From NCBI GenBank assembly GCA_903813345.2, contig CAIIXF020000001.1, positions 16,633,915 to 16,697,914 on the forward strand: a stretch of 64,000 nt of DNA. Reading direction: 5' to 3'. Below are positions 31,101 to 61,100 of this stretch, in pieces (position 1 is the first letter of the stretch; the number at the start of each line of letters is the position of its first letter). Below the pieces are notes generated by a model. It had not been told where the DNA came from, made no database searches, and saw only the letters and a program-made list of their open reading frames with translations. The position numbers and the translations under genes were made by a program. The DNA comes from Owenia fusiformis. Lineage: Eukaryota; Annelida; Polychaeta; Sabellida; Oweniidae.

Positions 31101-34100
31101 AAATGAAATATCTATTATTAGATTGGAAGGAGTCTATTGAACGTAACTTGAGGACATGTATGTGACTTACTTAGGTCCAAACCTTCTCTATATTCCGGCT
31201 TTGAGTAGAAAGATTAGCTGCCTTGGTGTTGTAAATATTGTAAATCAATGTGTCACACACACAGGAAATACGGCATAATAATATGAAATATATCTTTATG
31301 TATAGATTTGAGAAACATCAGCACACATCTCCGTCTGAATCTATTGTTATATTTGATTTCTTTAAGCCAGAATAATTTCAAAGTTTCCTACATTATTGAC
31401 GTCTGGAACCGGAAGCCATTTTTAGCTACAGCGAGAAAATTTAACCATGTGTCAAACTCCGAAAAGAAATTTTGAAATATCTAAAACCAGACAAGCAACG
31501 CTTCATCCTAAATATAATTAAAATAAAATGAATTATCGGTGCGTGTATCAATTTTTACATACGAAATACGAGTACATACGAAATAAATGAAGTTACATCT
31601 AGCTGTAAGGTAGAGACTCGAGTAATATGTGACGTGTCCATATTCATCAATAAATTAATTCTTTTGTATAAATTCAAGTTGTAAACCATATGAACGAGAT
31701 ATCAATTGAATACTTCAAACATAAAACTACAAAGTCATAAAGACAAAAGATAAAACGTGTTTGAAATTTTTTTTTTTTTTTGAACTTTTTTAAACTGACG
31801 TTTTTAGTGTGAAATATTACGATAAAATTTTCACAAAACGATTCAGCGATAGATAAATGTATATACAAGAGATAAATGTCGATAAAAAGAATCGAAATGT
31901 ATAACTTACATTGATGTTAATGGATTTTGTACGCACCTAGGGAGAAAACCCTCCAACTACAATCCTATCGATATCTCGTCTAAAGTCTCATCTCGTACTC
32001 TCGAGATCTGAAGCTTGATGTTTCGTTCAGTGTAACTTACCAGAAACATTTACCTGGGATAACCGGGGTATGGTCTTCTTAGGGCTTGTTCATACCTAAA
32101 CCTTAACCGACTCTCACATTGCCATAAATGAAATTATTGTCAATAATTTGAATTTGCCATGTTGCTTAATTCGTTAATTAACATACATACATACAAGTGA
32201 TTTTTTAAAATATGATAACTGAAAGGAGTTTGAATATAAATGGTTGAGAATAGTATATATAGTTAAACCTGTAAATGAAGAACACCTCTCTGAAGTAAAC
32301 ACCACTTAATGAACACGTTTTGCATATTTTGTTAACACCTATAATGTACATATAAGAGTATCTGCATTGTAATTCCTTTTCTTAGACAGGGCCTTATATA
32401 AGCACCCACTTTAAGAACACATTAATGGCTTGATGCTTAATCCATCACCTATTTGCAAAAATGAAATGCTTTTTCTCGCTAATAGGTGGAGCTGAGTGGT
32501 GGCGTGCCGCATCTGAACATGCCCGTCATCTATCTGGGCACACTGGCTTAGACTATTTTGGGGCAGCAGGACTTGGGGCAAGCTGGCCTCCATATGGGGG
32601 GCTTAACACACTGGATGCGGCCAGCTTGGATCTGTTGCTAAGGCAATCAGCTGCACAGAAAAGTAAGCTTGGCTTCATGTTCCTGTTACCTGGGGGGAGG
32701 GCACCCCATTGGGCAACAAACAGGGTGAAAGGGTAAAAAAACAGGGTCAAAATAACTAAAGTGAATCTGCAACTTAATTACCTATGTCCGTTGAAATGAT
32801 AGAATAATTTTTGGTGCCTTAAATATATTTTTAGAATTGCAGGATGAGGGTATCTTCTTCAAAATTATTTGAGTTACAGTATCTTTTTGACTTGTCAACT
32901 ACTCATCAATATTGATTGGTTCATTAAATAATGGCTGATAATTCATCACCCTTCTATGATAGATTCTACCTTTAAATACCTTTAAATGTGACGATGGACA
33001 AAATAATGCCTAAGCTTGTATTCGTGAATACAAATTTTGGCTGTCAGGTACCAGATTAACCTACGATTTTATGACCAACTTATTTATATAATGAATGGAA
33101 TAGTGGCAGGTACTATTTGAATTTAAATGAGGTCCCCATAAAATAGTAGGTTAATCGGGTAGCCGGAAGCCGTTAGTTGCATTCACGAATATAAGCTTAG
33201 AATGTGCCAATGTACCAGAACTAGATTAAGCCTTCAATATGACAAAGAGGAGTTAACCCATTGGGAGCCTGGAATAAGACTCACTGGCAGTGAGATGCTT
33301 GTTAAATGCTTGAAAGTGATCCTTTTGTTAACTCCTGATTCATGTGTGAACCACATTGGTGTGTGGAAGAAATAGCACCATTACCCAGCAAATACCAATA
33401 CAATCCTTTTTTGTCAGAAAAGCACATCTTTGCACAAACTCAGTGTTCTATGTAAATACAAAGTGAACATATATGCTAACAATTCTTTGTGATTTGCCAC
33501 TCTTATTAACTACAATTGTATTTAACTATAACATGATGAAATAAAACAGATTCTACGAAATATTGAAATTGTATGATTTCCAGAATGTCCTTTTCCTGAT
33601 TTGTGGCATCACACAAATATACATGTTCAACCTCAGAAAACGTTGTCTTTCATCTGCTATTTATTTGAGCTTCTGACATCTGGGAAAACAGATGGCTGAA
33701 CAGGAAAAGAAAATAGCAAAATTGTAAATCATCTACTTGTTGCGAATCATCCATGATCAGAAAAAATGAGGGGGAATCTTATGTAAACAAAGAATTTTTA
33801 CTCCCACCAAAAATATTAATCCAACAACGGTAATAGGAGTCTGATAGATGATATTTTTTATTTCAGATTTAAATGGCGTGTTTGGGAATCCATTATTTAT
33901 GCCTCCTCATTTTCTGTCAGCCTCAACCGTTGCCACGACAACTACAGCCAGGAGCGGTAGTCGCAGCAGTACCCCAATTTCATCCCCTACCAAGTTAACA
34001 AGCAGCAGCTCTGTGGGGAAACCTAGCAGTGCAGCTAAACAATCATCAGTAATACACAACAGTGTTCAGAGTCCTAGTGCTTTAAGTCCCAATGGTCCCA

Positions 34101-37100: not shown

Positions 37101-40100
37101 TTATAAAGGCCATGTTATCAAGATTTTTCATGTCATCAATGTTCTATTTTTCTTTGTTTCTGTCAAATATTTGCCTCTCAGAAAACTTCTCTTATATTGT
37201 CTCATAGTTATATTTAATAGCCCCTTGCTCTGGCGTATATCTCTGTATCTCTAGGCTCTCAAGGCCTTTTATTCATTACCCCTCATGATTCATATTTTTT
37301 TCCCCCTGCTTTTTTTATTTTATTTTAGCCCCTTGCTCGGGCATTTATATCTAGGCCCTCAAAGCCTTTTATTTTAGCCCCTTGCTCGGGCATTTATATC
37401 TAGGCCCTCAAAGCCTTTTATTTTTAGCCCCTTGCTCGGGCATTTATATCTCTAGGCCCTCAAAGCCTTTTAATCTCTAGGCCCTCAAAGCCTTTTATTT
37501 TAGCCCCTTGCTCGGGCATTATATCTCTAGGCCCTCAAAGCCTTTTATTTTAGCCCCTTGCTCGGGCGCCCCTTGCTCGGGCATGTAAATCAAAATATGC
37601 TTACCACTGCTGAATGTACGTCTGGCCACTTCGAATTCCCTATTTAGAATAAACATTCACTCTACTCAATAATATAGATGTCACTTAGGAAAGTGTTGTA
37701 TGAAATGTCAAGACCAGTCATGGAGATTGCTGATGCGTCTACATGCCATAAGGACTTACTAGTATTTGTCTTGAAGTTGTTGTTTCATGTTAAAGGATTG
37801 GGTGAAATACACATTTAATTTTACCCTTTACGGTGTATTTACATCCTGAAAAATGTGATTTGTTAATTTTACTACTCCCAATCCTCAAATCTTTAATAAA
37901 AAATTAACAAAAAACTAACGTGGACATCGGATTTGAGAGCAATCTCTCCCAGTAGTTCTAGTAGATGGTTTTCCATGATGTAATCATGAAGCTAATAAAA
38001 CCTAAAATTGACCTCATATCAATGTTTCATTCATGAATTACTGGTGGGGAAAAATCAGTCCCCTAACATGAGTAATCAACCTCAATTGCCAATTACCTCC
38101 TACTGTGGAGAGACAACTCTCACATCCGAAGTCCACGTGGTTAAAACCACTAAGAGATCAGTGCTCCCGGACTTTAGATGTAAAGAGAAGCCAATTGTTT
38201 ATCAGACTTCACTAGTTTCAAATGTTACAAACTCAAGTCATTTTCAAATTAGTTTACAAGAGGGTACATGGAAACCAATCACTTGCATAGGTTATCCAGT
38301 CATGTCAAAACAATTCAACCTACTTTCTATTGAGTAAACCCCAGTTTTCATTCAATTGCCAATTATCAGATTATACCTGAATGTCATTATTTTTGTCACA
38401 CTGTACTATAACGTACTGTATAATGACCTCTAATTTTACTGTGTTATTAACACATTGAATTTCCAGTGTTCATTATAAAGGCCATGTTATCAAGATTTTT
38501 CATGTCATCAATGTTCTATTTTTCTTTGTTTCTGTCAAATATTTGCCTCTCAGAAAACTTCTCTTATATTGTCTCATAGTTATATTTAATAGCCCCTTGC
38601 TGTGGCGTATATCTCTGTATCTCTAGGCTCTCAAGGCCTTTTATTCATTACCCCTCATGATTCATATTTTTTTCCCCCTGCTTTTTTTATTTTATTTTAG
38701 CCCCTTGCTCGGGCATTTATATCTAGGCCCTCAAAGCCTTTTATTTTAGCCCCTTGCTCGGGCATTTATATCTAGGCCCTCAAAGCCTTTTATTTTTAGC
38801 CCCTTGCTCGGGCATTTATATCTCTAGGCCCTCAAAGCCTTTTAATCTCTAGGCCCTCAAAGCCTTTTATTTTAGCCCCTTGCTCGGGCATTATATCTCT
38901 AGGCCCTCAAAGCCTTTTATTTTAGCCCCTTGCTCGGGCGCCCCTTGCTCGGGCGCCCCTTGCTCGGGCATGTAAATCAAAATATGCTTACCACTGCTGA
39001 ATGTACGTCTGGCCACTTCGAATTCCCTATTTAGAATAAACATTCACTCTACTCAATAATATAGATGTCACTTAGGAAAGTGTTGTATGAAATGTCAAGA
39101 CCAGTCATGGAGATTGCTGATGCGTCTACATGCCATAAGGACTTACTAGTATTTGTCTTGAAGTTGTTAATCATTCAATTTATGATAACATGGTTGTCCC
39201 TTTAACAGCTCAATTCCCAGAAACATTGAGCAGTAGGCTTGGAAATCAGTGACATTTTGAAATTTGCAATATTATTGCTGAAACAAAAAGTAAATATTGA
39301 CCAGTCCACTATGGAAGGTGATAACTGGGGACCACCCCACCCTTGAAAATAAACCTGACATTGAGACCATATTTTATAGGCATTGCTAGGAGTTCCCATA
39401 TCTGGTCAACCCGAGACTGAGGACTCTGAGGGTGCAACTGATCTGAGCACTTCTCAGCAGAAAGAGGCCAGATTCAAAGAATTCACTGACAGTCTGACTG
39501 AGACACCTGCTAGTGCAGGCAGTGAACAGTCTGATGGAGATGCTGATGATTCAGGTACTGCAGCTAAAAGATAAAGCATTGTCAAATGCAATAAAGGCAT
39601 AATTTGTAATTTGATGAACCAGAATGAATCTTAATACTATATCATTTTTTATCCCACCGAACGAAATTCGAGGGGGATATAGAGAAGCCGTCCGTCCGTT
39701 TGTCCGTCCGTGTGTCCGGGCGATAACTCCAATACCGGTTGACGGATTTGGTTCAAATTTTATAGGCTTATGCCTTATGAGTGTAGGACCTCTGCTCGAG
39801 AAGGAATTTTCAATATGGCTGCTCAATTCAAAATGGCCACCATTTTTCGTAAAAATGTAATTGTTGATAACTCAAATACAAGTTGACGGATTTGGTTCAA
39901 ATTTTATATGCTGATGCCTAGGGACAAAGGAGTTTCGCACAAAAAGTGATTTTCAAGATGGCTGCTTAATTTCAAAATGGCGGCCATTTTTCGTAAAAAT
40001 ATGTAATCTTTGATAAGGCCATAAGAAGTACATGTAGATTCTTTGGTGCGTCCCCTTGCTTGCATGATTTTGAGTAGATCAGAAAAAACAAACACATCAA

Positions 40101-43100
40101 AATAGCAATCACAAGGGTCTGAAAGTACCATTGCATTTCGTTCAATCAGAATCAGAAGAAATGGCGGATAATTTGATGTGCATCAAAATTAACAGTATTA
40201 TTGATTACTTTGGCATACATTGTGTATTTTCTTACTTTGAACCCTTGAATAATATAGTTTATATTATATAATTATAAACAATATAGATATGTCTTCGTTA
40301 TCACTGCAAACTGGTATGTCATCCCATTTTATTCTCATAAAATGTATACATTTCTCAGCAAACAAGTTTGTGTTTTTTCTTGAGTTTGTGTTTGTTTTCC
40401 TTGTACCCTTGCATGATTTGGATTTTGCCAGGACGCAAAACAAAGAATCTACTTCTTATGGCCTAACTCAAATACCAGTGAACGGATTTGGTCCAAATTT
40501 TATACGATGATGCTTAGGGACACAGTAGGTATGTTCGACAAAAAAATTTCAAGATGGCCGCTTAATTTCAAAATGGCGGCAATTTTTTGTAAAAAAACGC
40601 AATCTTTGATAACTCAAATACCAGTGAACAATTTTATACGATTATGCCTAGGGACACAGTAGCTCTGTTCAAGAAATAATTTTCAAGATGGCAGCTGAAT
40701 TTCAAGATGGCGGCCAATTTTTGTAAAAAACGTAATCTTTGATAACTCATATACCAGTGAACGGATTTGGTTCAAATTTTATATGATAATGCCTAGTTCA
40801 CAATGGTATAAACTAACTTTGTGCCAAATTTCATGCTTCTATCACAAAGTGCACAAACATTTCAACATTTACACTAGCTATAATAAGCATAATATGTTTT
40901 GTTCGGTGGGATTTGCTACTCCGTAGAGTTGCTGTTTTTCTAGTTATTCATAGAATTTATTCCACATTTAAAAAACATAAACATCATATTGGTTGCTTAT
41001 ATGTTTTAATTCTAATTTGAAGTCAAAGAAGTCTTCAATTCCAAGGAGAAAGTTGATGTCCAAATGTTTCTAGCAAATGACTATTGTATGAAGTGTGTAT
41101 TTCAGCAACTGGAAATTGGTTTTCATTTCCAATAATTCCCAGTAAACTGGTGATTTTTGTGTTACCATCTCCTAGTATGTTGTAGCTTTCCCCTGATTGA
41201 TTCTTGTATATTGGTCCTCAAACATTACATATTGGAAATTATACATTGCATTGTATCATATTGGAAATTATAAATTGCATTGTATCATATTGGAAATTAT
41301 ACATTGCATTGTATCATATTGGAAATTATACATTGCATTATATCATATTGGAAATTACACATTGCATTGTATCATATTGGAAATTATACATTGCATTGTA
41401 TCATATTGGAAATTACTTGTATACATTGCATTGTATCATATTGGAAATTATACATTGCATTGTATCATATTGGAAATTACTTGTATACATTGCATTGTAT
41501 CATATTGGAAATTACTTGTATACATTGCATTGTATCATATTGGAAATTACTTGTATACATTGCATTGTATCATATTGGAAATTACTTGTATACATTGCAT
41601 TGTATCATATTGGAAATTATACATTGCATTGTATCATATTGGAAATTATACATTGCATTGTATCATATTGGAAATTACTTGTATACATTGCATTGTATCA
41701 TATTGGAAATTATACATTGCATTGTATTGTGCTTCATTTACTTGACAGAAATTGTGTCTTTATATCCAGATTCTGATGGGGACAGTAGTAATAGTGGATC
41801 ATCTAGCAACTCTGATGATTCAGACTCGGACAACACTGGTTCCCATAGCAACCAGGACACACTGGGAGAGATGGGAAAAGAAGATAGAATGTCTGGCACT
41901 GATGGTAAGAGTCAGTATAAAGTTATGAAATAATTCATGCTAATTCCACAATATTTCTTCCTAAAAATTCGATGAACTATGTGACGTGATACTCTGGTGA
42001 TTTTACACAATTTTGAATACTGTTGAAGGCATGCCTGTTTACTTCATTTCTTGTTGGTTCCTCTATTTTCTACTCTATTCACACGATGAAAGGAAACATA
42101 ATGTTGTTTCCAAGAACACATAAAAAAAAAATTATAAGTTGACAGGATCACTTCCACCTTGTTGAAAACTATGACCATAATATCCATAGTTCTACCATTA
42201 AACTCTGATATTATTTTAAATGAACAGATTTTAGTAAAACAATATATTTTGGCATGCTATAATTATATAAAATTATTCAAGAGGATAACCAATCCCCTTA
42301 TGCAATATTGCTTTAATCGAATGGAATAAATATATTGCTTTAATCGAATGGAATAAACATATTGCTTTAATCGAATGGAATAAACATATTGCTTTCATCG
42401 AATGGAATAAATATATTGCTTTAATCAAATTGAATAAACATATTGCTTTAATCGAATGGAATAAACATATTGCTTTAATCAAATGGAATAAATATATTGC
42501 TTTAATCAAATGGAATAAATTAAAATAAATTTTTATTTGTAGCGTTGTTTCCTCCCTCCAAGAAGAGAAGAGTTATTGACGAGACTGAAGTTCGGATTCC
42601 TTTGGAATATGGGTAACTGAGTTTTTTAGTCGCTTATGTTTGATTTTAGTCACTTATGTTATATTGGTATTATTCCTTAAATTGTATTGCAACAAGCAAC
42701 AAGCATATCCTTTTTGAACCCCTCTCAGTATGTGGCTTATATACATAGAGGGTTGTATAAAAATTCATTACTTCTCTTTTATGTAATGAGGTAAGCTTCA
42801 GATGTAAACCCATATTTATTCTATTTCAGGTGGCGCAGAGAAACTCGAATCAGGAGCGTGTCACAGCGTGGTTTCAGTGGGGAAGTTCTCTACTTTGCTC
42901 CCTGTGGCAAGAAACTTCGCACGTATCAGGAAGTGGAGAAGGTAATTTTTTAAACTCTGTTGTACATTCCAAAAGTAGTTATACAACAAACTTTTTCTCA
43001 GTCAAAATCTATTCACTCTTCCACAAAACTTGTTCTGTGTCATATTGTGATTTACGTTTAGTAAGAAATTCTGCATGCCATAATAAATTTATATGCAATA

Positions 43101-46100: not shown

Positions 46101-49100
46101 GTAGTCAGTCTGGTGCACAGATTCAGGAAAATATGGCCAAATACTTTATCGTTCCATGTAAATGCAAATAGAGGTGTCACCTGCTGAAGGGGCATTTTTA
46201 AGACTGTGAGACACTTCTACAATTCTATATAACAACAAAGTAGTTCTTTATTTAACTGATATTAATCTATGCACCATGTATATTTCACATGTACAAACTG
46301 TAACCTCTCATCTTATATTTTAAACCACTGTAGTTGCTTTGTAGAAAAAGGCTATGGAATAATACAACATTTTTGTAATTGTAGTGCTTATCATTTCTTC
46401 GACGTTATATGTGTTATACATTATGTTTACTTGTGCCAGCTATACACATTTGAACCACATATTATTCATCTGTGACACAAATGTGATATTAATGTGTTAC
46501 ATTGGACATTGATGTGTGACACATGTAATATTAAAGTGTAACATTTTTACTTACCTGTAACACACATAATATTAACACGAAACATACATGTGACACATGA
46601 AGTATTTATGTGTAACACATGATATTTACCTGGGACACATGTGACATTAAAGTGTAACGCATGATATTTACATGTGACACACATGATATTAAAGTGTAAC
46701 ACACGTAATATTTACCTGTGACTTGTGTATATGGCATGTTATGATCTGGTTTCAGGAGAGGGAAGTCAAGCGACAACAAGCAATGATGCTCAAAGAACAG
46801 GTATTACTATAATCAGTGTATGATTTTATTTTGCATTCGACTTGCTTAAAATATCACTTGTCATGCTTAATTGATGCAATTAGTGATTTTTATGTCACCA
46901 CCAGAAGTGGTGACATATTGTTATGGTCTCCAACTTTTGTAGACAGTGTTCGGTACTTGGTGTTCCGTGTTTGCCACTTGGCATTTAACATTTGTAACAA
47001 AGGGCAGGTGGTGACATTTTGCATTTTAATGCCTTGTCTCTTTTTATACAATAAAAATGCTGATTAGAACAATATTTGGTTCCTCTCTATTTCATCAATT
47101 TTCTGCAATTAAGTTCATGACCTTGTGATATTTTGGCCACAGTTTAAAGAACTATTCTTGCATGTGTATGTAAAAGTTAAACATCCATGATTGATTGATT
47201 GATTGATTATAAGATTTTCAATGATGGTGTTTTTGAGTTATTGACTAGTGACTCAACTATTTGCCACTGGAACTTACAGTATAAATACTATCTTCTGGCT
47301 AAGTACTGCACCTTTGATGCTTTGAAGCATGCTCACATTTGATGTCTGAGCTTTCTGCAAGAGAATCCAAGCATATTTTTAATCTGCTGAAAATTCTAAT
47401 GAGCTTTGTCATAACTCTTAACTTGATTGATGCGAGTTGACACAAAATAGAATAATTTAAATTCACGGGAACATTCATTGATCCAAGAAATTCAAGGGAT
47501 AAAGAGTTAAATATGTTAGAAAACGAAAACTTCGCATGTTTGAAAATATTGTTATATGTGCCCATGTTATTTTCAAAATAAAGCATGAAAACATGGGTGT
47601 GTTTCCTTCTTTTACTGGAAAGCATCATTGTAGCATCCAGTGTAAGGTAAATTGGAAATGAAGGTAGTCTAATGTTTTGAGATACTACACCCCCAAAATG
47701 CAATCTGACCAAATGGACTGACTAGTCCGGTGGCAAATTTTGGTGTCGAAAGGTTTCGGTGCCGGAACGGTGTCGAAATGGTGCCGGAACAGCGCCGAAT
47801 GTTTTCGATGCCAAACGGCGCCAAATTATATTGGCTGTGTAGGAGAACAAATATAGTTTGAATGTTTTTTCATAAAATATCATTCTTTTTTGAGTTGGCA
47901 TTGACCCCTTACCAGATTTACCAAAACAGGAGTGAAAGGATACTTTCCTGAAAAAGTGGGGAAATACAAACATGTCTTTATAGTTTATTTTGAAAATAAT
48001 GTGGGATAGTATAGCCATATGTCAGATTAAGAAAATAACTGGAAAACAAATCAACTTGAAGTAAGAAGGTCATGGGATGAAAGTGCTATTTAACTTGATT
48101 AAGATTCACCCAATGATAACAATTTTGTAAATGTGCCCTCCTTATATAAGACATGTGTGCTATAGCGTTGTTTTGTGATTTTCTTGCTGTATGCTGCTCA
48201 GGAACGCGAGCGGCGCAAGCACATGATGGTCATGGTAGGACTGGTAAGTTCTCGTATATATGGTAGTCTTCATTGCAGTTATAACAACATGTAGCACATG
48301 CAATATCATCATTTATCACACGCTAAATGAGAATTATGCCATCTGATTGGTCATATACTATATGTTGCATCAAAACCTCCCTTTAGCACCCTTGTACATG
48401 TAATAATATGAGATAAAAGAAATATGAGGGTCATGGGTTAATATAAGTCACTGATTTTCTGCAAGTTATATCTCCACTTGCCCTATTTAGGGGAATAGTT
48501 CAGAAATATTGAATAGTAAGTTTTTGTTCATGACTAATTAATTCACAAATGCTTGGACATGGGTAATTGAAATGGTTAAGAGCCTGATTAACTGTACCAC
48601 CTGAACATATGGGTTTTTAACTTTTTATCACCAACGAATTATTTTTGTGAAGTTCAAATAAGATATTTTCCTGATAATTTTTCTGTACACAAAACAAGCA
48701 AGAAATATTTTATGTTCATGATGATAATTCATGTTAAAGACTGATGCTTAATAATTGAGGATATCGAGGTTCAGTATTATTCAATTGGCACCAATTATTG
48801 AGCTGATATCTTTAATAATGTGACCTGCATGAATCCTTTGTAGGGTTAACCCTTGCATGTCTGGCTGAATCCTCTCGCCAGTGTTCAATGTTTCCTCACA
48901 TGGGCAGATTAGGAGGAGGTTAAGGGTTAAACTTTCTAAAGATGGACCAAAACAAATCTTAATACTATTACCAATTCTCAGATATGCCCTCCTCGTCCTT
49001 TATCTTAATCTATTATTAACTAATTGTCCTGATAATCCTTCATATCAGTTGGGGAATCACCTATTTTAACTATTTTCTTAATAACGTCCCTCGTCTGTTG

Positions 49101-52100
49101 GTGATTGGTCAATGAATAACATAGAAAAAACATTGAAAGTGAGGAATATCAATCGATACCAACTGGTTTTAAAATTGGTTCCAATAAACATGAAAAGGAC
49201 CACTGGTCATTCTAGAGAGGAAAAAATTTCAACTGGTCATCTGTGAGAAGATACAATTGTCTGACTAAGCAAAAATTCAGTTAACTGTCAAACTAAGCTT
49301 GTTCATAGTTGGACTAAGCTTACTGTTCAATCGGCAGACAACTAAGCTTGCTCATCGTTGGACTAAGCTTACTGTTCAACTGGCAAACAACCAAGCTTGC
49401 TCATCGTTGGACTAAGCTTACTGTTCAACTGGCAAACAACCAAGCTTGCTCATCATCGGACTAAGCTTACTGTTCAACTGGCAAACAACCAAGTTTGCTC
49501 ATCGTTGGACTTAGCTTACTGTTCAACTCACAGACAACCAAGCTTGCTCATCGTTGGACTAAGCTTACTGTTCAACTCGCAGACAACAAAGCTTGCTCAT
49601 CGTTGGACTAAGCTTACTGTTCAACTGGCAGACAACTAAGCTTGCTCATCGTTGGACTAAGCTTACTGTTCAACTGGCAGACAACCAAGCTTGCTCATCG
49701 TTGGACTAAGCTTACTGTTCAACTGGCAGACAACTAAGCTTGCTCATAGTTGGACTAAGCTTACTGTTCAACTGGCAGACAACTAAGCTTGCTCATCGTT
49801 GGACTACACTTACTGTTCAGCTGGCAGACAACTAAGCTTGCTCATCGTTGGACTAAGCTTACTGTTCAACTGGCAGACAACTAAGCTTGCTCATCGTTGG
49901 ACTAAGCTTACTGTTCAACTGGTAGACAACTAAGCTTGCTCATCGTTGGACTAAGCTTACTGTTCAACTGGCAGACAACTAAGCTTGCTCATCGTTGGTC
50001 CAAGCTTACTGTTCAACTGGCAGATAACTAAGCTTGCTCATCGTTGGACTAAGCTTACTGTTCAACTGGCAGACAACTAAGCTTGCTCATCGTTGGACTA
50101 AGCTTACTGTTCAACTGGCAGACAACTAAGCTTGCTCATCGTTGGACCAAGCTTACTGTTCAACTGGCAGACAACTAAGCTTGCTCATCGTTGGACTAAG
50201 CTTACTGTTCAACTGGCAGACAACTAAGCTTGCTCATCGTTGGACTAAGCTTACTGTTCAACTGGCAGACAACTAAGCTTGTTCATCGTAGGACTAAGCT
50301 TACTGTTCAACTGGCAGACAACTAAGCTTGCTCATCGTTGGACTACGCTTAGTGTTCAACTGGCAGACAACCAAGCTTGCTCATCATTGGACTAAGCTTA
50401 CTGTTCAACTGGCAGACAACTAAGCTTGCTCATCATTGGACTAAGCTTACTGTTCAACTGGCAGACAACTAAGCTTGCTCATCGTTGGACTAAGCTTGCT
50501 GTTCAACTGGCAGACAACTAAGCTTGCTCATCGTTGGACTAAGCTTACTGTTCAACTGGCAGACAACTAAGATTGCTCAACTGTCAGACTTTATATTATC
50601 AAGTTTATACCTCAAATGGATAACCAGTAATTGATACTTTTGGTTTTCCTTGTTATTACTTGTTTTTTCTCAACACCAGTAAATTGTGCAGGCTTCAACC
50701 AGGGCTCCTTCCCTATAACATGGTAAAGCCTTATCTAATCTGCTTTAGCATTCTCTTATAATCATCACCATTTACATGTTTTTTAATTGATTTAAAGTTA
50801 AGTATTGGTTCAAGTATTGGTTTAACCATTGTTAGGCTTGTCTAGATGTTTTTTATGTCACCACCAGAAATGGTGACATATTGTTTTAGTCTTCAACTTT
50901 TTTATGGACAGTGTTTAGTGTTTGACACATGGTAATCGGCATTTGGTGTCTGTAACAAATGGCAGGTGGTGATATTTTGCATTTTAATGCCTTGTTAGTG
51001 CTTAATGTTATTATAAATACTCATGAGGTAGTGCAGATGTTGTTTGCTTCTGTTATATCAGTGATCCTCATAACATTAAAGCAATCGGCATGGAAAAATT
51101 AAATATGATGTCACACCCAGTTTTGAATACCCATGTAATATGGAGTATAATGATACTTGGAAGGATTTTAGTCAAAATTGATGTTCTCAATATTTGACGT
51201 TTCTACCAGTAGAATTGTATTTCATGTAATATCTTGATGAAAATATAACACACTCTAATCATTCATCTCAGGAATTTTGGGAGAACATGATGAATATCAT
51301 TATATTACATGAAAAATGCTCTGCTCTTTGCTTAGAGCCAGCTTGGTTGTTCGAAGATCACCACTGTTCATCTGCTCAGCTTATTTGCTTACAGTCATTG
51401 TTGTGGCATCATCGTGTCTGTATGTATGGATGTCTTTTGATCAACTGATATGTGTCTATAAATTGTTACAGGAGCGGGAACGTAGAAGACAACATCTGTT
51501 GCTGGTGAAGGCTCTGGAGGCCAGGAAGAAACAAGAGGTTAGTGTGTTCATCTATATTGTACATAACATACTGTATTGAGAATTCTAAAGGGTAAAGGGT
51601 ATCAGGCAAATGCTGGATCCTTTCAAATTGGAATATGATGAGAATAAGTCCAATTTTCAGGATGTGTCTCATTTTTCTAAAAAAAAAATGATTTGATTGG
51701 AAAATTTATAGTTTCTTATAACTTATCTTTTACTTATATGTTTATAAATCATTTTATTTAGCCTACAATTTACCTCATTGTATTTTGTATACTCCCATTC
51801 CTCATCATATGATTCTGTAATGTAATGTAAATAATTGCCAGTCCATTATTTGTCCAAAATATTCTCAGACTAATCATTTCTTAGCAAGTAAACATTCAAA
51901 AAATCTCTTTCTTTAATCTTTGTCTCTCTTGCAAAAACTACATTAATGTTGTATACTTCATTCATCTTGTAGGATCGTGAGAAGCAGAAGGAGGAGAAGC
52001 GTATGGAAAAGCAGATCTGTAGGGAGAAAAAGATGGAGCAGAGACGTATGGAGATCCAAATGGCACATGAAATGAAGAAACCAATCGATGATCTCCAGCT

Positions 52101-55100: not shown

Positions 55101-58100
55101 TCCAGGGTGAAAATGGAAGTTCACAAAATGGCACTCCGCAGAAGTCTGAATCAAACTTTATGAACATTGATTCACTGATCCAGAAAGATTCTCAACAAAA
55201 CATTTTTGGCAGCAGTTTTATGTCCCCCGATCTCAAAGCTGACCAAACGACAGCTGGACAAATGTTGAAAAATCTAGCCACAAGTCAGTCAAATCAAAGC
55301 TCATGGTTTAGTATTTTACCCAGAATGCCCTGTGATGATAAATCCATAACAACAGGGTCTCTTGGTGTGAATAATACATCGACACCAAAAGACACCCCTG
55401 CAGATAAAACTGTAAAATCTGAACCTCTCATATCTCCATATTTACCTCCCACCCCATACAGTGCGTATCTCCCAAGTCCATCATTTGCTTCAATGCATAT
55501 GGCGCAATACAACTCAAATAGCAACTTCAGTATGGGAGAGAACAGTAATAACTCATCTTTCCCGTGTATGCCACTTGATCTCAGCATGCCATCCATTTCT
55601 GCCCCAGAGACCCCTGATAAAAACAATGTCAATAAAGAGACCCCTGAGAAGCAACAACAGCACAATGCTTCTAGTTTCTTAGATCAATCAGGTCTACAAG
55701 AGGAAAAGGCTAGACAGTCAGAAGATATGACATCTATCAGTGTACTACAACATGAAAAGCCACAGACTATTCCAATAGGTAGGGAACATCTTTAAATAAA
55801 ACATTCTGAGACATACAATATTAATGTAGGCCTTTACTAGAAAGCCCATAGGAATATGTGATATCCATTGTGCCTGAATCTCTTTATTTCTACAGGAATA
55901 GAGCTGATTGTGAATACCTTAAAATTGCAAGAATCTCTAATGTGAATTTTTTAGTTTATTTAAGACATAAGTTCACTCAAGAATTGTTTTAAAATGGAAG
56001 TGTTTGACATTCATGTGTATATACCGGACTATTGAGGTATCAGTCAATCCAAATGCAACGTTTGAATGAGGTGTATAACGGATATTATTATTCCAGAACA
56101 CCAGCATGGATGGTGGCGTATAGCAGACCCCAATCAGCTAAAGGCTGTTCAAAGGTGCATACATCCACGTGGAATACGAGAGAAAATTCTGCAGAAAAAT
56201 ATCCAGAAGTACCAAGAGTATGCATATAGTTCCTGTATTACTGCCTCCTCAGAAGGTATGTTGAAATAATCTATTTTGCTTTGATTATGTGTTCAATATT
56301 TAAAAATATTGGGGTTTTCTAACCAAGGATTTCAAGTCTGTTCTCAAGAGTCACACATGTTCAATGTCTGTGTTCGTACTATGACAAAAATGGAAAACTT
56401 GCATGTTATTTATATATTTACATAATAATATTTATAATCTTAATGTAACAATTACTTCTCATCATCATACTTCATTTATTTTTTATTTTATTTATTTTTT
56501 TATTTATATTTGTAAAATAATTTGTGTCATGCTTTTTGTAGCCAGTTAGTCATTTTGCAGTCAGATTTGAAGATCAAAAATGTATGATATACATGTATAT
56601 TGAAGGGCATGGCTTCTCATTTCATATTATTTTAACTTTATCAATACTCTTTTTAGTAACTGATCTTAAGATAACAGATATGGACCGTGAAATATCCCAG
56701 AGTGCAACACGTGCCCCTATGCCAGACGGGAAGGATGCAATACATCAGGACATAAAGTTTGACGCAGAGAAATCAGTATTTGAAGATATAGAAGATCTTG
56801 AAGAAAGAATTTTTACTGCCAGCCTACAAGTAAAAGTAAGTAAAGCAGTGTAATTGAGTATCACCCATCTGTGTACTTCAAGAAATTAGGAGGGTATTGG
56901 AATAATCATCTCTGAGTGAAAAATCTGTTGAATATTTCTTTTGAGGAGATTGTTAATTAAGAAATATAAACCGAAAAGCAAGGGTAATATTGTCGAATAC
57001 ACCCCGCAGGCCTAGGCACAAACGTTTTTTGTTCGAAAGCTTTTGTGCCTAGCCCTAAGGGGTGTATTCGACGATATTACCCCTACTCTGAGGTCTATAT
57101 TATGATTCGAACATGAAAACTCACCAAAATGTTCCGATGGTCCGCCATTACTACAACCCACCGTTATGACGTCACACATTACACGTATTACCAGGGGTAT
57201 TGATCGTGAATATACCCCGGGTGAAATGTTGACTGTTTACAGTTTATAGAAGGCGTGAATACAGTCATGTTCGAATTTCGAATCATACCTTCAGAAAAAT
57301 ATTTTCAGTGTTTATATATTCCCTTGGAATGATCCATCTACTGCTAATTGAAATGTTTTGCAATTCATGTGGATGTTTTTTCAGGGTTGGAAACTACCTC
57401 CAAGGGTCACAGATGAGGAGAAGCTGATACTGGTGCCAAGTGAGAAAGCTCTCAATAGTGAGATTGAACAACACCCACTTGATCATGGCAGGGAGCGCCT
57501 CTTGGGCCTGGAAGAGAACATAGAACGAAGATACCTCAAGCCACCATTTACTAAAGCGTATGTATCCTATTAATTTTAAAATATGTGCCTAATAGGATTT
57601 CTTCAGGTTACTCTAAGTGGGAATTATACTTCAGAAAAAACATTTTGCCTGTTTCTATACAATTAGAGTATCACTAACATTTACAGTACAATTGATCTCA
57701 CCTACATTTACCTTGTGTTACAGTACAACAATTGATCTCTTCTACTTTTACCCTCTTTTACATTAGAACAATTGACCTCATCTGCATTTGCCTTGTTTTG
57801 CAGTACAACAATTGACCTCATCTACATTTTACATTTACCTTGTTTTGCAGTACAACAATTGACCTCATCTACATTTTACATTTACCGTGTTTTACAGTAC
57901 AACAATTGACCTCATCTACATTTTACATTTACCTTGCTTTACAGTACAACAATTGACCTTATCTACATTTTACATTTACCTTGTTTTACAGTACAACAAT
58001 TGACCTCATCTACATTTTACATTTACCTTGCTTTACAGTACAACAATTGAGCTCATCTACATTTTATATTTACCTTGTTTTACAGTATAACAATTGACCT

Positions 58101-61100
58101 CAGCTACATTTTACATTTACCTTGTTTTACAGAACAACAATTGACCTCATCTACATTTTACATTTACCTTGTTTTACAGAACAACAATTGACCTCATCTA
58201 CATTTTACATTTACCTTGTTTTACAGTACAACAATTGACCTCATCTACATTTTACATTTACCTTGCTTTACAGTACAACAATTGACCTCATCTACATTTT
58301 ATATTTACCTTGTTTTACAGTACAACAATTGACCTCACAAACATGCAGACAAATCACAGAGCGGAGAAACGGTTAGAAAAGGAACGTGAACGTGAAGAGA
58401 ATCATGAAAATACTGAAAGCAATGATGGCAACCCTGAACAAAACAGTGCAAAACTCAAAGACATTCCAAATGCTCTGATTGGTTGGCGGAATTCTGTTGC
58501 CAAGGCTATGAATCCTTCCCAGTTATACATATGTTTCCAGCAACTAAATAAGTCAATAGCATGGGAGAAGTCCATTATGAAAGTGGTAAGTACATGTTAT
58601 TCTATGTAGCTATGGCCCTGCATTGGACATCTTGTACAGTTAGTTTCCATACCATTTTAACACTTAATCTTTTACACAGTGCACTAACAGAACTTTCAGC
58701 AATATCAGTATTACCAATAGATATATTACCGATTAAAGGAATCAATATTTTCTGAAATTCTTTGTTTTTTAGTTATGCCAGATCTGCTTACGTGACAACA
58801 ATGAGGCAGAGCTGCTGCTGTGTGACAACTGTGATAAAGGTTACCATACCTACTGTTTTAAGGTATGCACTGTTATGTAGTCTTGCTGCTAATCTCCCCT
58901 GTTGCCTGTTTCTGTACATAGAGTTTTTAAAAGAAGAGTGTGTGTATTTATGAACAAAGTCATGTCCAGTGTGACAAAAAATGAAAATTACATTTTAGTA
59001 TCTTTGAAAATAACTAACTTTTCAACCTCTATCATAGAGACATCAAGAGTAGTGAATTTAGTAATTAGAAAATCAAATGCAAAAGTTAATTTAACAAGTT
59101 TGAAGTCTTACATGGAATAACTTAAAATTATGCTGGAATCCAGTTATGGATTGAATGATCTTAAGAAGATGTAAGAAGATGTGTTCAATGTGTTCAAAGT
59201 TATGGTGTACTTATAACAACATAGAGGTTGAGAGATATTACATTTACTATCTAAGATACATGTAGGCTCTCTATAAAATCACTTAGTTGCACACTATACA
59301 CAGAAAAACTCAATAATATTCTATCAGGATTCAGAATCACACTACCCTACCACGTGACCACATTTTAAAATGATACAGGGTACGGTTAAGTTGCAAATGG
59401 AGCGGGAATTCTCTATCTTTGTCCATTGGGCTTTTCTGGTAATAATACGTTGCAAACTGCTCGATGAATCTATACAATGTATAGTAGAACACTTAGAATA
59501 TGTGTAAAATCTAGTATACATTCAGAACTATGGAAATAAACAAACGTCCTCCATTTGCAACTTCCCTGTAGCCTGTACTTCTTTTAAAGGAATACAGGAT
59601 ACAGTATGGGGGTATAGTAGTGTGAGAATGGGGATAGTTTTCCAAAATTAGCAGGTTGCATTTCTTTGTCACCATATACATTTTATGTCAACAGTATAGC
59701 TCAACTCATGGATTCATGACAATTTCTTAAAAAAAACATCTGTTGTTGAAGAGAAATTGCTGTGAAATCGAAAAAGTAAAAGACCGATATAATTTGGTTC
59801 CGATTTGAATTTAAATCAAATTGAATTATAAGTTGCGAATTTTTTACATAAGTAAATGAATATGTATCATATATATGTACAAGTATCATGTATTTCTACC
59901 TTGGACTTCATTTCCAGTTTCAGTTCAAAATTAAAAATAAATTTCCGTAAATTATTCCTCGCCTGTCTCATGGCTGACTTCGCCCATGATTAACCGTATA
60001 TCTGAATTTGTTATTTCAGCCTAAGATGTCCAGCATCCCTGACGGGGACTGGTACTGCTTTGAATGTATAACAACAGCCTCTGGTAGACCCCATTGTGTA
60101 GTTTGTGGAAAGACAGCTGGCCGCATGGCTGATTGTGATAACTGTCCACGTGCATTCCATATAGACTGCCTTGTTCCACCCCTTCCCAGGGTCCCCAGGA
60201 AGTGGTCCTGTGCTACGTGCGTCTCTGATAAGGTATGTCAGGGCCCATGCATTTTCAGAATTTATTCAAGGTTCCTTTTTGGAACAATTGTAATTTACAA
60301 TTCTTAAGAAGAACATTGTGTACTTATAAAAAAACATTGCCTACTCTCAAAGCAGACTTGCGACCAAATTGTAAATTATGAGAGTTTCAATAATGACCCC
60401 ATAATAACAAATTCAAGTAAATGTGCAGTCATTCATTCTGGTATACATTGCCATTGAGTTGATAAGTGTCCATTATTTGATTATACAGTGTAAACCTAGT
60501 GGGCGTCGTGGTCGCAAGCCTAAGGCACTGAAAGATCTAGAACGTTCCACAGATGACACAACAGATGATGCTGACAAATGCTCCACACCATCTAGTGCAA
60601 CAAGTAGCAAACAAAATGGAACTGATGACTTCACCAACTGCAGGTAACCTTTTGATTTTTTCATCACCATTTATGAAAAGAAATCAAACACTTTGTCATT
60701 TCTACTCAAAAGAAGTACAGAATAAATCGTTAGACCTTTTCATTTTTATGCATATTTTGCATTGTTAATGCCTTTTTGATAGAAGCGATTGATTATTGAA
60801 AATACAGTATTTACTTTTTTTGTTCCAAAACTATATAGTCCTACAACTTGAGTTCAAAGGTGTTTGTTGTAAGTCTCAAACTTGATTTTAAAAAATACAC
60901 ATATACCAAATGTCCTATGAAATATTCCAGGCTTATCCTATCTGAACTCGAAAGGCATGATGAAGCATGGCCATTCCTGCTCCCAGTGAACTTCAAGCAG
61001 TTTCCACAATATAAGAAGGTGATCAAACAGCCAATGGATTTCCAAACTATAAGGAATAAACTCAGGGACTCACAGTAAGTGATTTTTGTACATTGAATGT

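Follow-up and report, generated by a model that had tools for sequence, protein, structure and literature searches.

A boundary-spanning minisatellite with 15 potential splice acceptors in a BAZ2-type gene of the annelid Owenia fusiformis

The locus and its gene

The window analysed here is a 64,000-nucleotide stretch of the genome of Owenia fusiformis (assembly GCA_903813345.2, contig CAIIXF020000001.1, positions 16,633,915 to 16,697,914 of the forward strand). It contains a BAZ2-type gene on the + strand (33867-62093), in which a minisatellite at 57675-58337, also on the + strand, is built from an intron-exon boundary. Arrays of this kind are known as mirages. The array was delimited by Tandem Repeats Finder and anchoring, and its 15 acceptor-bearing copies occupy most of the 763-nt intron between the exons at 57385-57557 and 58321-58585.

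The gene model rests on splice motifs, Pfam matches and the nearest solved chains, and comprises 30 located exons with 2030 stop-free codons. It begins at 33867; an exon specified near 34.8 kb was omitted as its motif was not found. The exon that adjoins the array is the 25th of the 30, and was numbered exon 29 in the original prediction, with the exon upstream as exon 28. The Pfam scan covered the first 1129 and the last 458 residues of the protein. Within these two parts the domains follow the order of BAZ2 (TIP5-like) proteins, namely MBD (76 bits), DDT (31 bits), PHD (73 bits, in two stretches) and bromodomain (87 bits), with a sub-threshold match for WSD. The nearest solved chains to the last 458 residues are BAZ2B bromodomains; BAZ2A and the PHD fingers of the two proteins rank lower among the best 60 of 494 matches. 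The domain positions agree with the earlier placement of the array just before the PHD/bromodomain part. There are two tandem PHD-like fingers ahead of the bromodomain, at 58773-60232, as judged from the two Pfam stretches. Human BAZ2 proteins have one PHD finger.

Anatomy of the array

Anchor-based mapping located 15 AG acceptors, consisting of 14 decoys and the presumed genuine site at 58320. The acceptors lie at 57686, 57723, 57766 and 57803 and thereafter in 47-bp steps up to 58320. Tandem Repeats Finder reported the main part as 57785-58337, with a period of 47 bp, 11.8 copies and 95% matches. At least 11 copies at 47 bp, built from the boundary, had been claimed originally; the 47-bp series was found to hold 12 acceptors. 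Each of its units consists of the intron tail and the first 17 bases of the exon. This exon-derived part is TACAACAATTGACCTCA after all 12 acceptors, with 5 variant positions among 11 units. The series is composed of 11 decoys (57803-58273, + strand) and the final unit before the exon (58274-58320, + strand).

The left edge of the array (57686-57802, + strand) is in a shorter register and holds the acceptors at 57686, 57723 and 57766. The CAATTGA anchors are spaced at 40 bp for the four left-most and at 47 bp for the remaining ones. The three copies of this edge are shorter, and the exon part is shortened after 57686 and 57766. Direct reading of the letters indicates that the 47-bp unit is the 40-bp unit with a short internal duplication (CTACATTTACC in the 40-bp unit, CTACATTTTACATTTACC in the 47-bp unit).

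Only 13 of 517 positions in the 11 full 47-bp units deviate from the consensus, and every one of the 15 copies has kept its AG. Some of the variants are private to single units, which is evidence against a simple assembly duplication. The array is confirmed as a genuine feature of the sequence.

Reading frame and splice signals

The upstream exon (57385-57557, + strand), with the donor GTATGT at 57558, was joined by script to each of the 15 acceptors. The frame stays open at 58320 only. All 14 decoys lead to a stop within the extended exon, including four for which the extension is a multiple of three. The expectation that upstream copies would shift the frame or meet a stop was thus borne out for every decoy.

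Acceptors were scored with a small matrix built on the other 29 acceptors of the gene, themselves scored by leave-one-out. The site at 58320 scored 10.0 and the decoys 0.9-11.5; seven of the 14 decoys reached at least 10.0 and 11 at least 8.6, while just four of the other 29 acceptors score 10.0 or more. The decoys had been described as near-equal sites, and these local scores, within the limits of the small matrix, agree. With half of the decoys at or above the score of the presumed genuine acceptor, signal strength alone does not select the site.

The exon at 58321-58585 (+ strand) is 265 nt long, begins TTIDLTNMQ..., shares its first 17 nt with the array units and ends at the donor GTAAGT at 58586. 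In the 100 nt past the AG there are 20 GAA/AGA/GAG/AAG triplets for the site at 58320, compared with 0-6 for the decoys, and it is the only one of the 15 acceptors to be followed by purine-rich, enhancer-like sequence. This weakens the earlier view that position is the sole cue available to the splicing machinery. The array is also without a competitive donor. The best of the 25 GTs in 57660-58320 scores 1.3, at the left edge, and the others score below 0, compared with 1.5-12.3 for the 29 donors of the gene.

Candidate branch points of the yUnAy pattern precede the AG at approximately 36 nt (TTGAC), 31 nt (CTCAT) and 20 nt (TTTAT/TTTAC). The TTGAC at 58282-58286 (+ strand), which is copied exon sequence, is a likely branch point of the genuine acceptor. 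The distance and sequence given for it in the original prediction fit; its ranking as the best candidate is no more than plausible, since CTCAT and TTTAT/TTTAC fit as well.

The array corresponds to a mirage in three respects. The unit spans the exon-intron boundary (intron tail and 17 exon bases), the genuine boundary as placed by the frame lies inside the array, where the last unit ends, and the splice signals are retained in many of the copies.

Mirages elsewhere in the genome

The genome (G000; 498.3 Mb in 525 contigs) was sampled at 82 loci around kinase (30), myosin (30) and ABC (22) matches, some of them overlapping. Six further mirages containing exon sequence were found, at both 5′ and 3′ splice sites. 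Four are in myosin genes. L048 is a 3′ site with 61 bp × 4.5, in which the exon piece ATYARDALCKAIYSRLF comes last. The other three are 5′ sites: L042 (34 bp × 4; CAG/GTAGGG, with four exon bases), L055 (41 bp × 4; VLIRPLTMHQ/GTATGT) and L062 (121 bp × 2.8; TPLSIDQALDA). The remaining two are in ABC genes. L064 is a 3′ site with 114 bp × 5.2 and the exon piece GRTVLVIAHRLSTIQNADLIA, the genuine exon lying past the fetched stretch, and L066 has three AGs, each followed by AATGTGTCA. L055, L062 and L064 were spotted by eye in the array lists, and their boundaries lie outside the denominators given below.

The pieces ATYARDALCKAIYSRLF, GRTVLVIAHRLSTIQNADLIA and the other duplicated exon pieces are, we assume, typical of the myosin and ABC protein families. 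Being family-typical, they indicate that copying in these cases probably ran from the exon to the array. In L019, an array with 35 copies of GTAAGTAATGATTAGTGTGATTT begins at the donor of a kinase exon. The 23-bp unit starts with GTAAGTAAT, and the copies at gene-strand positions 1979-2784 form decoy 5′ splice sites. This locus was left out of the six as it repeats the intron side of the donor only.

Several other observations were made during the genome searches. On the minus strand at G000:C9:37986009-37994334, 12 separate matches cover nearly identical stretches of about 55 myosin-head positions (between 18 and 84). They lie upstream of muscle myosin exons and resemble a sizeable cluster of mutually exclusive exons. 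A muscle myosin piece was closest to a sequence that we take to be from scallop (510 bits), followed by one presumed to be from squid (494 bits), a vertebrate one (493 bits) and one presumed to be from fly (near 430 bits). Three matches above the cut-off to Eryth_link_C (PF16915), presumably an annelid family, lie within 15 kb of the genome. The myosin and Eryth_link_C matches point to a spiralian, probably an annelid. The GFP family and mollusc haemocyanin gave no match in the genome in searches made without a positive control, and COX1 was likewise not found.

Arrays and splice sites

Ten Tandem Repeats Finder arrays were used to compare array and splice-site positions in the window gene; those at 39690-39718 and 47758-47799 were omitted, and the mirage was counted from 57703. 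Arrays make up 16.8% of the intronic bases. One of 29 acceptors and none of 29 donors lie inside arrays, against a rotation mean of 4.9 for each, and across both splice ends the count of 1/58 has a rotation P of 0.0066. At position -60 from the acceptor, 4/29 are inside arrays, again with a rotation mean of 4.9. An attraction of arrays to acceptors was rejected, as coverage at neither position exceeds the rotation mean.

Boundaries at the sampled loci were called automatically using general splice-site consensus matrices, and some are wrong. Removal of duplicates from overlapping loci reduced them from 155 to 136 and, in a second sample, from 79 to 67; array coverage was taken on the loci as fetched, with overlaps double-counted. 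Four of the 136 lie within 3 bases of an array (L019, L042, L048 and L052, the last a weak match of 17 bp × 2.2), compared with 8.2% coverage (binomial P(≤4) 0.011). In the second sample the count is one of 67 (L066) against 7.7% coverage. The total is 5/203 inferred boundaries in arrays, compared with approximately 8% of non-coding bases. If anything, splice sites are avoided by arrays. That boundaries are hit less often than random non-coding bases is expected if such events are harmful in most cases and tolerated in a minority. If the rate of 5/203 holds, there would be thousands of cases per genome.

Three minisatellite stretches of the window (41228-41727, 42305-42519 and 46464-46722) each fall short of an acceptor AG by approximately 20-45 nt, as though cut back at the splice signal. 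The array at 42305-42519 precedes the exon at 42543, that at 46585-46722 precedes 46756, and that at 41228-41727 precedes 41770 (or an AG at approximately 41748). Elsewhere in the gene, a stretch of approximately 1.37 kb appears by eye to be duplicated in tandem at approximately 36.3-39.1 kb. According to Tandem Repeats Finder, both copies contain the same 49-bp minisatellite (37318-37582 and 38690-38969). A 49-bp minisatellite with 26 copies and 95% matches also lies at 49291-50579, within a 3.2-kb intron.

Probable origin and tolerance of the array

The array is probably a mirage minisatellite that arose by local tandem duplication and is tolerated because the exon defines its own boundary. 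The original 3′ splice region, comprising the intron tail and the first exon bases, would have been copied in tandem, probably in the 40-bp register first. A subsequent 7-bp internal duplication may then have produced the 47-bp unit. With the spread of this unit, the genuine acceptor itself would now be a member of the array. The array may be one by-product of a genome dense in minisatellites, and would confer no benefit on its gene.

The purine-rich start of the exon and its consensus GTAAGT donor would recruit the machinery to the nearest acceptor, which is the last copy. The decoys precede array sequence that is poor in enhancer-like triplets and would offer no usable donor. Exon definition, through the enhancer-like start, the exon's own donor and the choice of the shortest exon, may in this way hold splicing to the last acceptor. 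Any transcript spliced to a decoy instead would meet a stop, and its expected removal by nonsense-mediated decay would act as a backstop.

Several points weigh against this account. The site at 58320 is taken as genuine solely from its reading frame, and the exon start is assumed to be old. The intact AG in 15 of 15 copies, together with variants that do not cluster in the splice signals, gives no sign of selection silencing the decoys; this is compatible with a young neutral array and also with a useful one. A second array of 48 bp × 16 (L001:3474-4243) lies on the same contig, 30.8 Mb from the BAZ2 array. The two units share CAGTACAACAAT(A/T)GAC and more at nearly equal spacing, with 66-73% identity. 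For one pair of units, the alignment score was reached by 1 of 3000 near-dinucleotide shuffles and by 0 of 3000 mononucleotide shuffles. The capture of a dispersed repeat by the exon retains a small probability.

If a dispersed or mobile repeat family had landed at the acceptor, the exon would have gained its first 17 bases from the array. The similar units of L001 speak for such an origin, which is nevertheless judged quite unlikely. A DNA search of the genome with the array yielded L001 as the one other array, the match stopping at the exon-side end of the array, with the left flank barely in the query. The 16-mer pattern CAGTACAACAATWGAC has 17 genomic sites (control 0), of which eight are in the window array, eight in L001 and one at L002, where it is single and looks coding by eye. 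The other mirages begin from conserved exons. With very many unrelated arrays in the genome, a likeness such as that of L001 is explicable by chance, and the dispersed-repeat origin was rejected on these grounds, with some reserve.

A regulatory role for the array is conceivable, though unsupported. It might act as a splicing rheostat, in which the decoys take a share of the transcripts into stops and decay, and the copy number sets the level of BAZ2 protein and varies between individuals. The decoys match the genuine site in strength, every one of them gives a stop and all have retained the AG, as such a role would suggest. It is nonetheless unlikely, given that the enhancer-like sequence follows the genuine site only, and that in units this young intact AGs need no selection. 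The lancelet mirages are also reported, in the passages of the two papers concerned, without disturbance of regular splicing (PMC3087553, PMC3902484). A function as an avidity platform is very unlikely. Here the repeated polypyrimidine tracts and branch points would gather U2AF and SF1 and boost the last acceptor, and in the two copies examined a tract is indeed accompanied by several matches to yUnAy at the usual distances. The genuine acceptor is, however, already among the stronger ones of the gene and would need no such help. Finally, an assembly artefact is barely credible. Assemblers often get the length of tandem arrays wrong, which leaves the exact copy number uncertain, but the private variants, the two registers, the diverged edge copies and the boundary arrays in seven other sampled places (L019 included) argue against it.

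Comparison with known systems and significance

Mirages have been described as tandem repeats of intron/exon boundaries in the lancelet genes Adh3 and the globin genes BflGb6 and BflGb9 (PMC3087553). According to the passages of that report, the data suggest that regular splicing is unaffected; the copies are noted as potential cryptic splice sites, and a model of intron gain is proposed. Those arrays share with the BAZ2 array minisatellite-like units that join the intron end to the exon start or are taken from the opposite boundary, the retention of AG/GT in many copies and the position of the authentic copy beside its duplicates. The BAZ2 array differs in size, with 15 copies and a 47-bp unit, compared with units of 10-72 bp in Adh3, 150-160 bp in BflGb6 (3 or 6 units) and 157 bp in BflGb9. 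It also differs in lineage and genes, and is known from the sequence of one assembly. In lancelet PGBD5, repeats of 60 and 108 bp that cover splice sites have been likened to mirages; as far as the passages describe them, they differ in being imperfect duplications, with a triplication of the 108-bp repeat (PMC3902484).

The Rogers model derives intron gain from the tandem duplication of splice-competent sequence (cited in PMC3087553), and a case of gain by tandem duplication is presented for the potato RdRp gene (PMC4974935). In these accounts, as in the BAZ2 array, tandem duplication brings new splice signals into a gene. No new intron is evident in the BAZ2 gene, where the copies remain intronic in the inferred gene model.

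In NAGNAG tandem acceptors several acceptors also compete for one donor. Their AGs lie 3 nt apart and yield mostly in-frame products, whereas the acceptors of the BAZ2 array are 37-47 nt apart and lead to stops. The open-licence literature searched yielded no annelid mirage in the passages available; a paper on earthworm metallothionein describes repetitive introns, and its passages contain no mirage. As boundary-spanning repeats are already described from lancelets, the BAZ2 array belongs to a known kind, and a claim of novelty for the kind is not supported. A broader proposal would make mirages a genome-wide class, with approximately 2-3% of splice boundaries inside minisatellites. Copy number would then set the decoy losses of each gene and individual, so that mirages would act as a splicing rheostat of extreme variability and would steadily supply new introns. 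This is regarded as improbable.

The BAZ2 array is a natural experiment in how the spliceosome chooses among many near-identical 3′ splice sites. Together with the other cases it offers ready-made tests of exon definition, of the tolerance of decoys and of the proposed route from mirage to intron. The presence of such arrays in several genes of an annelid suggests that mirages are not an oddity of lancelets, and may instead be a consequence of high minisatellite density.

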